From an uncultured Candidatus Binatia bacterium (GTDB lineage Bacteria > Desulfobacterota > Binatia > Bin18), in contig OY282457.1 in the NCBI GenBank assembly GCA_958296235.1, positions 2,661,338-2,725,337 of the forward strand: a DNA stretch of 64,000 bases, in the 5' to 3' direction. A program made the position numbers and the translations under genes. Under the pieces are notes generated by a model that saw only the letters and a program-made list of their open reading frames with translations, was not told where the DNA came from and searched no databases. Below, one piece after another: positions 7,782 through 11,361 of this stretch (the first letter of the stretch is position 1; each line of letters begins with the position of its first letter).

Positions 7782-8147
7782 CTACAGTGGGGCGTCCCAG
7801 GCTGGCGCTTTCCAGTTCCTGGGACCGCGCCAGCGATATTTTCCCAGATCAACCCTACCATTACGGTCGAACGCGACCCCCTCCTCCTCCAGCAGCCAGC
7901 GCTGTTCCTCGGCGCGCAGAACATCGCCCCGCAGACTGATGCCGCCCGAAGCGTTAATCACCCGTTGCCACGGGACCTTTTTTGTCAAAGGACGCGGCAG
8001 ATGGCGGAGCGCCGTGCCGACTGCCCGCGCGGCCCGGGGCGCGCCAAGCAGGGCGGCCACCTGCCCATAGGTCACGACTTTTCCGCGTGGCACCTGCGCG
8101 ACCAAGCGATAGACATGGGTAAAAAAGCGCGGCGAACGGTCTGCCAT
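7782..8147 (-). CDS. alkyltransferase-like protein (ATL), Trp in place of active Cys
   Basis: 121 residues, the DNA-binding half of O6-alkylguanine methyltransferases: VPRGKVVTYGQVAALLG then ARAVGTALR. The PCHR active site is replaced by PWQRVINASGG, with Trp60 where the methyl-accepting Cys would be. ATL proteins bind O6-alkylguanine without repairing it and hand the lesion to nucleotide excision repair. It is the last gene of a minus-strand run that also holds a true methyltransferase domain (9538-10548), consistent with a local alkylation response. Confidence 0.88.
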   Translation of the reverse strand: MADRSPRFFTHVYRLVAQVPRGKVVTYGQVAALLGAPRAARAVGTALRHLPRPLTKKVPWQRVINASGGISLRGDVLRAEEQRWLLEEEGVAFDRNGRVDLGKYRWRGPRNWKAPAWDAPL

Positions 8148-8153
8148 TCTCTC

Positions 8154-8573
8154 TTACGAAGCCAGCACCCCAAGCTGCTTGAATAGCCCGAACACGTCCC
8201 ACGAGAGCCAGACTTCTTCAATCTTTTCGTCCGCTATGCGATACAGGGCCACACCCGCGACCACGACTTCCTTGCGCGTTGGCGCAACGCCCATGAAATT
8301 GCCGTCGTGCGTGCCGTGAAAGGTCCAGCGGGCCACCACTTTTTCTCCGCGCGAGACAAAATCCTCTATCGTGAAATGGACGTTCGGAAATCCCCGGCGT
8401 ACCGACGCGACGATCTGTTTGACATCGTCCGGCCCGCCGCCAAGATCATAGCCGGCCGGATAGTGGCTGACATAGGTCGGAGAAATGAGTTCATCGACGC
8501 TCTCCATTTTGCCCTGATTGAGACAGTCTTCAAAATAGCGCCGGACGATGGATTCGTTTTTTGCAATAGACAT
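8154..8573 (-). CDS. SnoaL-like polyketide cyclase family protein
   Basis: 139 residues with the NTF2-like cone fold pattern of SnoaL/ester-cyclase proteins: an N-terminal helix IVRRYFEDCLNQGKMESVDELIS, then PNVHFTIEDFVSRGEKVVARWTFHGTHDG, and a late IADEKIEEVWLSWDVFGLFKQLG. Members bind or isomerise small hydrophobic molecules; many have unknown roles. It lies 6 bases upstream of the ATL gene on the same strand, so co-transcription is likely. Confidence 0.8.
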   Translation of the reverse strand: MSIAKNESIVRRYFEDCLNQGKMESVDELISPTYVSHYPAGYDLGGGPDDVKQIVASVRRGFPNVHFTIEDFVSRGEKVVARWTFHGTHDGNFMGVAPTRKEVVVAGVALYRIADEKIEEVWLSWDVFGLFKQLGVLAS

Positions 8574-8620: not shown

Positions 8621-9466
8621 TTATACATCCTGCGCTTCGGGTGGAAGGGACGGTGGCTGTTTACGGCGCTCGGTCCGCTGGACGCCGGGCACCAGCCTGG
8701 ACACGGTTGTTGCGCCCTGCCAGTCACCCCGAACATCTGCGGCAATAACGGTGACCCGGACCATTTCACTCAAACCTTGGGGATTCGGGAGGAGATGCGC
8801 CTCCAATCGTCCGTCCTCGGGCAGCCGGGCCTCGACATCCGGCGGGGGGAGCGCGCCGGGGTCTTCGGGATAGTTGCCAATGGCCACGTGATACTCGGTC
8901 TGGGGCTGCTGTTGCACGACGACGGACACCGGATAGTCCAGGCCGGTCGGCAACCGGTCCGGCACCGCAAGCGTCACATTCGGCGCCTCCTCACCAAACC
9001 GCCCCTCTCGGTAGGTGGCCAGGCGCTTGTCGGTGTAGATCTGCCACTGCTGTGCGTCCTTCCGCAAGAGATGAGACAGAACGTCGGTAATGACCACCTC
9101 GCCCGCGCCGATATTGCGGAAACGGTCAGTATAGCGCAGGCGCATAGAGGTCGTGATGGCGGCGCGTGTGTCGTCCACCTCTGTCACCTCGACCTTATCC
9201 ACGCGCAGCGCCACCTTGCTTTCCCGTAGCCGTGTCAGCACCTCCCCTACGCCACGCTTTGACCGGCCGGTGCCGCTGATGAAATCATCCGCATAGACGG
9301 CAAGCACCTGCTCCGGGTCAAACGCTTCCAACCCGCGGGCGAGTCGCCCAAGAGTCTGTCGCAGCTCAGGTGGAACCGCCGGGTCAGTGGAACCGTGCCG
9401 GCGTTCGCAGGCACTACCCACGCACAGGGCCAGCAGCACTGCGGGGGCGAGACGCAACGCGTTCAT
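8621..9466 (-). CDS. predicted lipoprotein with NTF2-like region
   Basis: 281 residues from the Met at 9466, chosen because it opens a classic lipoprotein signal: APAVLLALCVGSAC with Cys20 as the lipidated residue. The mature part begins with a helix and the NTF2/SnoaL-like stretch EQVLAVYADDFISGTGRSKRGVGEVL (broken here at the Gly turn only for description), followed by a beta-rich C-terminal domain with no clear match. It is probably membrane-anchored and extracytoplasmic. It lies just downstream of the anti-sigma/methyltransferase gene, on the same strand. Confidence 0.65.
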   Translation of the reverse strand: MNALRLAPAVLLALCVGSACERRHGSTDPAVPPELRQTLGRLARGLEAFDPEQVLAVYADDFISGTGRSKRGVGEVLTRLRESKVALRVDKVEVTEVDDTRAAITTSMRLRYTDRFRNIGAGEVVITDVLSHLLRKDAQQWQIYTDKRLATYREGRFGEEAPNVTLAVPDRLPTGLDYPVSVVVQQQPQTEYHVAIGNYPEDPGALPPPDVEARLPEDGRLEAHLLPNPQGLSEMVRVTVIAADVRGDWQGATTVSRLVPGVQRTERRKQPPSLPPEAQDV

Positions 9467-9537: not shown

Positions 9538-10548
9538 TCAAAACAGGCCGGGCTCCGTCTCCATGTAGAAGGGGCCGCGGTCTGGGCGGCAGACGCCACA
9601 GGGGGCATAACCAATCTCTTCCGCTCGGGTCCGTGAGGCAATGAACAGCCGATTCCCCGCCCGGATTCCCTGTGAAGCCTCACAGCCTGGTCGGCAAAAT
9701 GTCCGCTCCGCTTGCCGACCGACATAGAGTCGATCCTGGGCAATGGCAAAGCCGGAGCGGGATGGAACCGTTGGGATGCCCTCAACCGCCAGAATATCCC
9801 GCTTGAGCGCGATTTTATTGCCGGCATAACCGGTCAGGCTGCCCGTAGTGCCAACAATGCGGTGACAGGGAATCCGAATCGGCAGCGGATTGTAACGCAG
9901 GGCTTGCGCCACCGCCCGGACGGCTGTGGGCCGCCCGATTCTTTCGGCCAGACCCAAATAGGTCGTCAGGCTGCCATAGGGAACCTCACGCGCCGCCTGT
10001 AAGACCTGCCGCTGAAAATCGCTGCGCATGAGGCCGTCATCGATCACCCAATCCAGGGCGTGGCGCGAGCCGTTTAAGTACGCTTCGAGTTTCCGGGTCA
10101 GAGCAGTATGGCCCTCATTTCCTTCAGCCTGCTCAAAGGAAAACTGAGCAAATTTTTCTCCGAGTCTCTCTGCTCCGCTTTCGGGATCGTCGGGAGAAAC
10201 GAATGCAACCAAAGCCACGCCCTTATCCGTTGTGCCGATCCGCAGTGGACCCAGCGGAGAATGCCAGAGACTCAGGACGAGGCGCGGACGAGTATCCCGA
10301 GTCAACTGGGCCAACTGTGTATTGAGCGCGCGTCGAGCCGCGGCGAGTCCGGCCTCTGAGGCGGGCAGAGAGCCAAGCTGAAAGCGGACCTGTGTATACT
10401 GTTCCAGGCGCTGAGCGCAGGCAGGACAGACGGTCAGGTGGCTGCGGACGGCCTGCTGTATCCCCTGTGGATTTTCTCCGAGCGCTTCGGCAATAAGGTC
10501 GTCTTCGGCAAATCCACACGAGCGCGTGTTACGCTTCCGGGTTGGCAT
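9538..10548 (-). CDS. anti-sigma-like zinc finger fused to MGMT and Ada-type zinc domain
   Basis: 336 residues with three parts. (1) Residues 1-60: zinc-binding anti-sigma pattern, His37-x3-Cys41-x2-Cys44 in SHLTVCPACAQRL. (2) Residues 88-260: O6-methylguanine-DNA methyltransferase, with MRSDFQRQVLQAAREVPYG and the active site IPCHRIVG at Cys228. (3) Residues 265-325: Ada N-terminal methyl-phosphotriester domain, with zinc cysteines 285, 289 (FCRPGC) and 317, 320 (GYAPCGVCRPD). In E. coli Ada the zinc domain comes first, so the order is permuted and the AraC helix-turn-helix is missing. Its start overlaps the end of the ECF sigma gene by 20 bases, implying translational coupling. Inference: it restrains that sigma factor and releases it when alkylated. 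Confidence 0.85.
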   Translation of the reverse strand: MPTRKRNTRSCGFAEDDLIAEALGENPQGIQQAVRSHLTVCPACAQRLEQYTQVRFQLGSLPASEAGLAAARRALNTQLAQLTRDTRPRLVLSLWHSPLGPLRIGTTDKGVALVAFVSPDDPESGAERLGEKFAQFSFEQAEGNEGHTALTRKLEAYLNGSRHALDWVIDDGLMRSDFQRQVLQAAREVPYGSLTTYLGLAERIGRPTAVRAVAQALRYNPLPIRIPCHRIVGTTGSLTGYAGNKIALKRDILAVEGIPTVPSRSGFAIAQDRLYVGRQAERTFCRPGCEASQGIRAGNRLFIASRTRAEEIGYAPCGVCRPDRGPFYMETEPGLF

Positions 10549-11110
10549 GACATCTCCTTTCTTCTCCTGTCGTAACCCGTTGCCAGTCCGCCCGCAGCTT
10601 CTTCAGAGCTTGATACACATGGGCCCGGGCGCTGTCTTCGGAGCAGTCCAGGTTTTCGGCAATCTCCCGATAGGCGCGTCCTTCAAGCTGCCGCTGTATT
10701 AATGCCGTGCGCTGTCGGAAAGGTAAGGCCCCAAGCGCATTCAGGAGGATATGGGCGGTCTCCTGCGAGTGAAACGTCTGTTCTGGCGTTGTGGGCTGCA
10801 CTCCTGGAGCAGGGAGGGGCGTATCCGCGACAAAGACTTTTCTATAACGCTGCTGGCCGCGGATGTAGTTTTTTACGAGATTTGTTGCAATCCGAAAGAG
10901 CCAGGCCCGGTGGTTGGCGTCGGCCGGCAGGTCGGCATAGGCGCGATAGGCTCGGAGGAAGGTCTCCTGAAACAACTCCTGCGCGTCGTCGTCCTTGCCC
11001 GTACAGCGGACGAGATAGCGATAGATGGAGCGCTGGTGGAGATCGACGATCGCCCCAAACGCGCGCGCCGTGTTGCCGGGTTGTTCTGGAGGTGCCGCCA
11101 TTCCAATCAC
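10529..11110 (-). CDS. ECF-type RNA polymerase sigma factor
   Basis: 193 residues. Region 2 is DDAQELFQETFLRAYRAY with the -10-recognition helix following (ANHRAWLFRIATNLVKNY); region 4 is ALPFRQRTALIQRQ, then AYREIAENLDCSEDSARAHVYQALKKLR. Regions 1 and 3 are absent, as in ECF (group IV) sigma factors. Met4 is an alternative start. It overlaps the downstream anti-sigma/methyltransferase fusion, the usual arrangement of sigma and anti-sigma partners. It probably directs its own operon, which may include the lipoprotein, SnoaL and ATL genes. Confidence 0.92.
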   Translation of the reverse strand: MIGMAAPPEQPGNTARAFGAIVDLHQRSIYRYLVRCTGKDDDAQELFQETFLRAYRAYADLPADANHRAWLFRIATNLVKNYIRGQQRYRKVFVADTPLPAPGVQPTTPEQTFHSQETAHILLNALGALPFRQRTALIQRQLEGRAYREIAENLDCSEDSARAHVYQALKKLRADWQRVTTGEERRCHANPEA

Positions 11111-11361
11111 GTAGAGCAGGCTTGCTCTAACACTCGCGCGCCTGAAGAAGTCATCCCCAGACCCCTACTGGCAGGGGAGCGAGAATCCCGAGAAAGCAGG
11201 TCAATGAAAACCACACAATGAGTAATGAGCGATAGACAGACATAAAACACACCCTCCGTTTCGTGTATTGTTCTTCCGTTCTTTATATAAGACACCGGAG
11301 GGCGCTCTGTGTGAAAAGAATTATTGCCTGACCGCGGTCCGGTCCGTATAGTCCGGGTGTT

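Follow-up and report, generated by a model that had tools for sequence, protein, structure and literature searches.

A putative alkylation-sensing anti-sigma factor: a zinc anti-sigma domain joined to an O6-alkylguanine-DNA alkyltransferase and an Ada zinc domain beside an ECF sigma gene in Binatota

The window analysed here, a whole stretch of 64,000 nucleotides from an uncultured Candidatus Binatia bacterium, contains an ECF sigma gene followed by a gene whose product joins, in one protein, a zinc anti-sigma (ZAS) domain, an O6-alkylguanine-DNA alkyltransferase (MGMT) domain and an Ada zinc domain (Table 1). In our judgement, this fusion protein is probably a cytoplasmic anti-sigma factor with a DNA alkylation repair enzyme as its sensor, methylation of which would free the ECF for its own operon. 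What the sequence itself shows is the domain folds, the intact sites, the linkage to the ECF, the layout of the operon, and the conservation and uniqueness of the promoter.

Table 1. Features of the ECF-alkyltransferase locus (positions in the window) and the evidence for each of them.
Feature	Position	Strand	Evidence
ZAS-MGMT-Ada_Zn fusion protein, putative alkylation-sensing anti-sigma factor	9538..10548	-	ORF, 336 aa
Zinc anti-sigma domain, residues 9-59 (C11, H37, C41, C44)	10372..10524	-	AlphaFold2 model; top PDB folds ChrR/RslA/RsiW
Linker helix, residues 65-86	10291..10356	-	relatives without the zinc domain keep a comparable MGMT-proximal helix
O6-alkylguanine-DNA alkyltransferase domain, residues 89-258; acceptor C228 at 9865-9867	9775..10284	-	Pfam PF01035 (DNA_binding_1, MGMT), 3.3e-28 at residues 177-258; best Foldseek match E. 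coli Ada-C 1sfe
Ada zinc domain, residues 270-323 (C285, C289, C317, C320)	9580..9741	-	Pfam PF02805 (Ada_Zn_binding), 9.5e-9 at residues 270-323, above cut-off; 1u8b in fold search
ECF sigma factor; start ATG 11101, GTG 11110 possible	10529..11101	-	TIGR02937 8e-26; Sigma70_r2 2.5e-15; r4_2 2.7e-13; PDB SigE, RpoE
Small hydrophobic ORF, 30 aa (MSVYRSLLIVWFSLTCFLGILAPLPVGVWG), between promoter and ECF	11151..11243	-	7/7 genus sequences; third codon positions vary most
Putative ECF-type autoregulatory promoter TTTTCACA-N13-GGTGTCTT (TTTCAC-N15-GTGTCTT)	11289..11317	-	conservation upstream of ECF
Lipoprotein-like DUF4440-related protein	8621..9466	-	weak DUF4440; neighbours kept in L005, L008, L058
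SnoaL-like protein	8154..8573	-	PF07366 1.4e-35; L063 has one too
Alkyltransferase-like protein (ATL), PWQR replaces PCHR	7782..8147	-	nearest PDB 2kif, S. pombe Atl1 3gva; also in L063

Judged by its residues, the MGMT domain is catalytically complete: the acceptor C228 sits in an IPCHR motif, and the site residues Y197, R211, N220, C228, H229, Y241 and E256 are invariant in an alignment of 28 full-length relatives. Apart from C228, these residues correspond to Y114, R128, N137, H146, Y158 and E172 of human MGMT. A Methyltransf_1N match (Pfam, 5.5e-4) is also present in the fusion protein. In the Ada zinc domain, C285, C289, C317 and C320 align with C38, C42, C69 and C72 of N-Ada10 (34-77), with C285 at the position of the acceptor C38. 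The full-length AlphaFold2 model has a mean pLDDT of 85 and, when submitted to Foldseek, its middle part leads to E. coli Ada-C, its C-terminus to N-Ada and its N-terminus (weakly) to ChrR. Pfam and NCBIfam scans of the fusion protein found no HTH, AraC-type included.

Regarding the N-terminus, the window protein matches zf-HC2 below threshold (Pfam, 0.11); among the 17 orthologous N-termini, 14 match zf-HC2 (best 2.9e-6) and 14 match the RsrA anti-sigma model (best 1.3e-4). When the N-terminus is run as a profile against PDB sequences, ChrR comes first, at a weak 0.13. The AlphaFold2 model of residues 1-89 is made up of four helices (mean pLDDT 79), and 15 of its 16 Foldseek matches, and with them every credible one in the PDB, belong to ECF anti-sigmas (ChrR, RsiW, RslA and DdvA), with single E-values that are weak (0.2-5), so that the case stands on the agreement among the matches. 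With VIA-align, the model reaches Z 8.1 with ChrR and 7.0 with RslA (2.5 A over 55 residues). The earlier note had named H37-x3-C41-x2-C44, C228 and C285/C289/C317/C320 correctly and had called the finger anti-sigma-like, a description borne out by these ortholog and fold matches, which speak against a finger unrelated to anti-sigma domains; its set of zinc ligands was incomplete, having overlooked a fourth candidate, C11, which is invariant across the 17 orthologous N-termini together with H37, C41 and C44. Zinc motif with upstream fourth ligand, anti-sigma domain (ASD) fold and ECF adjacency are thus all found in the fusion protein which, on its sequence and modelled fold, qualifies as a class I zinc anti-sigma factor with a predicted inhibitory function.

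The ECF product consists of sigma regions 2 and 4 only and is matched by ECF models. The end of its gene and the start of the fusion gene overlap, as the earlier note had pointed out; the overlap measures 20 nt, and the partnership proves to be conserved: at E up to 1.6e-34, the ECF has 60 matches, of which 59 are checkable (one is cut by a contig end), and an alkyltransferase gene is adjacent in 59 of these 59 Binatia genomes. It is adjacent as well in G264, the sixty-first and weaker match. In most loci, the start codon of the alkyltransferase protein overlaps or abuts the ECF stop. The ECF query has one match per genome in 67 genomes, and the six next-nearest ECFs are a natural control for gene order: they have no alkyltransferase, and that slot is occupied by ordinary zinc anti-sigma proteins (H-x3-C-x2-C), most of them with apparent membrane segments. 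In the ECF tree, the 63 alkyltransferase-linked ECFs form one clade (support 98/96), separate from the six others. In the loci L172, L173, L175 and L177, related ECFs are followed by conserved zinc anti-sigma proteins with, apparently, several membrane segments.

In a scan of one genome per species with near-exact peptides, which sets no bound on other phyla, an ECF gene directly precedes the full-length orthologs of L005-L012. Their identity is 77-86% in Binatota and about 40% in Rokubacteria, and none of the nine named residues varies. The domain order described in the earlier note recurs, therefore, in other Binatota families and in Rokubacteria, and orthologs from two phyla rule out a chance fusion or a mis-called ORF. 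Among 148 surveyed genomes of the class Binatia, several layouts can be differentiated beside the ECF: (i) the window form, with ZAS, alkyltransferase and Ada zinc domain; (ii) a short form, whose N-terminus (about 40-70 aa) ends in a single helix and is followed by alkyltransferase and Ada zinc domain; and (iii) a form with a zinc-less N-terminus and an alkyltransferase, without Ada domain. The acceptor Cys is kept in every surveyed alkyltransferase protein long enough to read, and the Ada CxxxC..CxxC is invariant wherever the Ada domain occurs. About 36 relatives have no recognisable anti-sigma domain, yet they keep the ECF and the promoter. The short forms still have a conserved MGMT-proximal helix, which could be a minimal sigma-binding element, and the zinc-less N-termini (L099-L104) resemble the zinc ASD weakly in hhalign (12.7% probability, E 0.0023).

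In the ECF tree, the ZAS forms branch off twice in succession below the short forms, so that a loss of the ZAS domain in the latter is the most economical interpretation. The alkyltransferase tree places ZAS and short forms in one clade (95/94), and the forms without Ada domain group, with weak support, with ordinary alkyltransferases. Furthermore, a second, distant ECF lineage (L038, L105, L107 and L114) comes with alkyltransferase-Ada_Zn proteins of its own, which suggests an independent recruitment. In view of these separate tree positions and of the second ECF lineage, alkyltransferases seem to have become linked to ECFs at least twice.

Upstream of the ECF, the genus alignment reveals TTTCAC-N15-GTGTCTT, which recurs in other families and in Rokubacteria; in the short forms, the corresponding region has TTCAC-N15/16-GGGTTATA. 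The joint pattern TTCAC-N15/16-GKGTY is found in 53 of the 63 ECF upstream regions, against 0.1 expected from shuffles, usually about 37 nt ahead of the assigned ECF start. Ahead of its own operon, the ECF hence has a predicted and conserved promoter of bipartite type, one of the marks of an ECF. The strict site occurs once per genome in the seven genus genomes (7/7), always at the ECF-fusion operon. One-mismatch sites amount to 2-4 per genome in all (the operon one included), are not more frequent than in the reversed control and are not common to different genus genomes. In the short-form family (39 genomes), all but one of the 21 promoter sites are at the ECF-alkyltransferase locus. Other ECF-like sites in Rokubacteria are several and at chance level. 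As the sites are essentially confined to the locus, the predicted regulon is the operon itself, and a large ECF regulon is rejected. In one Rokubacterium, a second copy of the motif (L011:4996-5021) lies just downstream of the fusion gene, ahead of a small membrane-protein ORF.

The last gene of the operon in Table 1 encodes a protein with an alkyltransferase-like fold in which the acceptor Cys has been replaced, that is, a lesion-marking alkyltransferase-like protein; its PWQR rules out an active transferase. The operons of relatives add AlkA, Ogt (a second alkyltransferase) and Oxygenase-NA (PF09859, 3e-81), and those of the short forms L072, L074, L081 and L083 contain AlkA, a second alkyltransferase and Oxygenase-NA in varying combinations. 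The predicted target of the sigma is, hence, an alkylation-repair operon, in agreement with the regulatory route for alkylation damage proposed in the earlier note.

The fusion protein shares features with three groups of known proteins: (i) E. coli Ada, which likewise has a CxxxC/CxxC Ada zinc domain and an O6-alkylguanine transferase in one protein and an auto-induced operon with alkylation repair genes (autoinduction being a prediction for the fusion system); (ii) the class I anti-sigmas ChrR, RsrA, RslA and RsiW, with the same zinc ASD fold, the H-x3-C-x2-C motif plus upstream fourth ligand, and a gene directly after the ECF, with overlapping starts, in a predicted autoregulated operon; and (iii) Ogt/AGT and ATL proteins, which have the alkyltransferase domain with PCHR or, as in the ATL of the fusion operon, PWQR. 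Compared with Ada, the domain order is reversed (the zinc domain is at the C-terminus), an anti-sigma domain stands in the stead of the AraC-type HTH, and the gene adjoins an ECF sigma with its own promoter type. Given that it lacks an AraC-type DNA-binding part, the fusion protein is not an Ada-type activator. While the four class I anti-sigmas have a cupin, a membrane segment or nothing in addition to the ASD, the fusion protein carries an alkyltransferase and an Ada zinc domain, and the signal that it putatively reads is damage to DNA by methylation. Ogt/AGT and ATL, for their part, are stand-alone repair proteins with neither anti-sigma nor Ada zinc domains.

In the mechanism that we propose, the N-terminal domain (here the zinc four-helix ASD) would hold the co-translated ECF sigma in the undamaged cell. 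Upon damage, the protein would accept methyl groups at two places: (i) at C228, by suicidal transfer from O6-meG or O4-meT; and (ii) at the Ada zinc site (C285, by homology), from methylphosphotriesters. Methylation would then alter or destabilise the fusion protein and, in this way, free the sigma, which would transcribe its own operon (ECF, alkyltransferase anti-sigma, lipoprotein, SnoaL and ATL) from the single TTTCAC-N15-GTGTCTT promoter. Fresh unmethylated protein would repair the DNA and recapture the sigma once the lesions are gone, so that the system would count lesions and reset itself. Complex formation, promoter activity, methylation-triggered release and recapture are the steps that we infer. 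As to the sensor, the earlier note had placed the switch in the Ada zinc Cys. The ZAS and Ada domains are each missing in some relatives and the alkyltransferase Cys never is; for this reason, consumption of the alkyltransferase is proposed as the core signal. Methylation of the Ada domain, which can be absent while the alkyltransferase Cys and the ECF persist, would be retained as a second input rather than as the main switch.

Other explanations have to be weighed against this mechanism. Anti-sigma domains combine with varied sensory domains, and redox sensing is frequent among soluble zinc ASDs (PMC7406223). The zinc finger might then, as in RsrA or ChrR, sense oxidation or the direct alkylation of its thiols, with the alkyltransferase parts as fused repair cargo, and the invariance of the four zinc-ligand residues throughout the ZAS forms would agree with such a role. 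But the zinc site is absent from sister lineages that share the ECF clade and the architecture of the promoter, while the alkyltransferase Cys is never absent, and we find a redox or electrophile sensor rather unlikely. The short forms bear on the remaining alternatives and are the main weakness of the anti-sigma mechanism: with some 36 relatives devoid of a recognisable anti-sigma domain, either a short helix is enough to hold the sigma or some forms of the protein do not act as anti-sigmas. Since the ECF link is kept in relatives without the ZAS domain, the methylated protein might instead help the ECF or the RNA polymerase at the promoter, in the manner of methylated Ada with the sigma70 holoenzyme, an activator that acts through RNA polymerase contacts (PMC4437013). 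The N-terminal fold is, however, of the sigma-sequestering type and the AraC-type HTH is missing, which makes a positive partner improbable.

The loss of a recognisable ASD in many relatives would also be in line with a fusion protein that has no regulatory role at all, i.e., a repair enzyme in an ECF operon whose ASD-like helices are a relic; in fact, conserved ECF linkage by itself would fit a merely co-regulated repair enzyme. In any case, Binatota and Rokubacteria have the same zinc ligands in proteins about 40% identical, the two reading frames overlap or touch in most loci, and neighbouring ECF families have ordinary anti-sigmas in the same slot, all of which leaves this as the least credible of the explanations considered.

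Turning to novelty, a literature search found no paper joining an anti-sigma or an ECF to an alkyltransferase, although the main ECF reclassification was outside its scope and a prior ECF-group listing is possible. To our knowledge, no anti-sigma factor has been described that takes a DNA repair reaction as its signal. No other Ada_Zn domains were found in the seven genus genomes, which, consequently, have no canonical Ada. In Binatota and some Rokubacteria, the ECF/anti-sigma-alkyltransferase system is probably an alternative to the classical Ada response and, apparently, one that has not been described. The anti-sigma mechanism can be extended to a more general proposal, which we put forward tentatively, as a possibility somewhat short of probable: the suicide repair enzyme would be the anti-sigma itself; each repaired lesion would irreversibly use up one inhibitor, the ECF thereby counting lesions and newly made unmethylated protein resetting the system; the O6-alkylguanine acceptor Cys, and not the Ada zinc Cys, would be the core switch; in Binatota and part of the Rokubacteria, the system would replace the Ada response; and alkyltransferases would have been joined to ECFs on more than one occasion.

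If true, this would be a second bacterial way to sense DNA methylation damage, in which an ECF sigma replaces the Ada activator, and the first known anti-sigma factor signalled by a DNA repair reaction. The supply of fresh unmethylated inhibitor would make the design self-resetting, and its two genes and one short promoter would be a candidate genotoxin biosensor. For the organisms themselves, it would explain how the genomes of this genus, without a canonical Ada, could induce alkylation repair.
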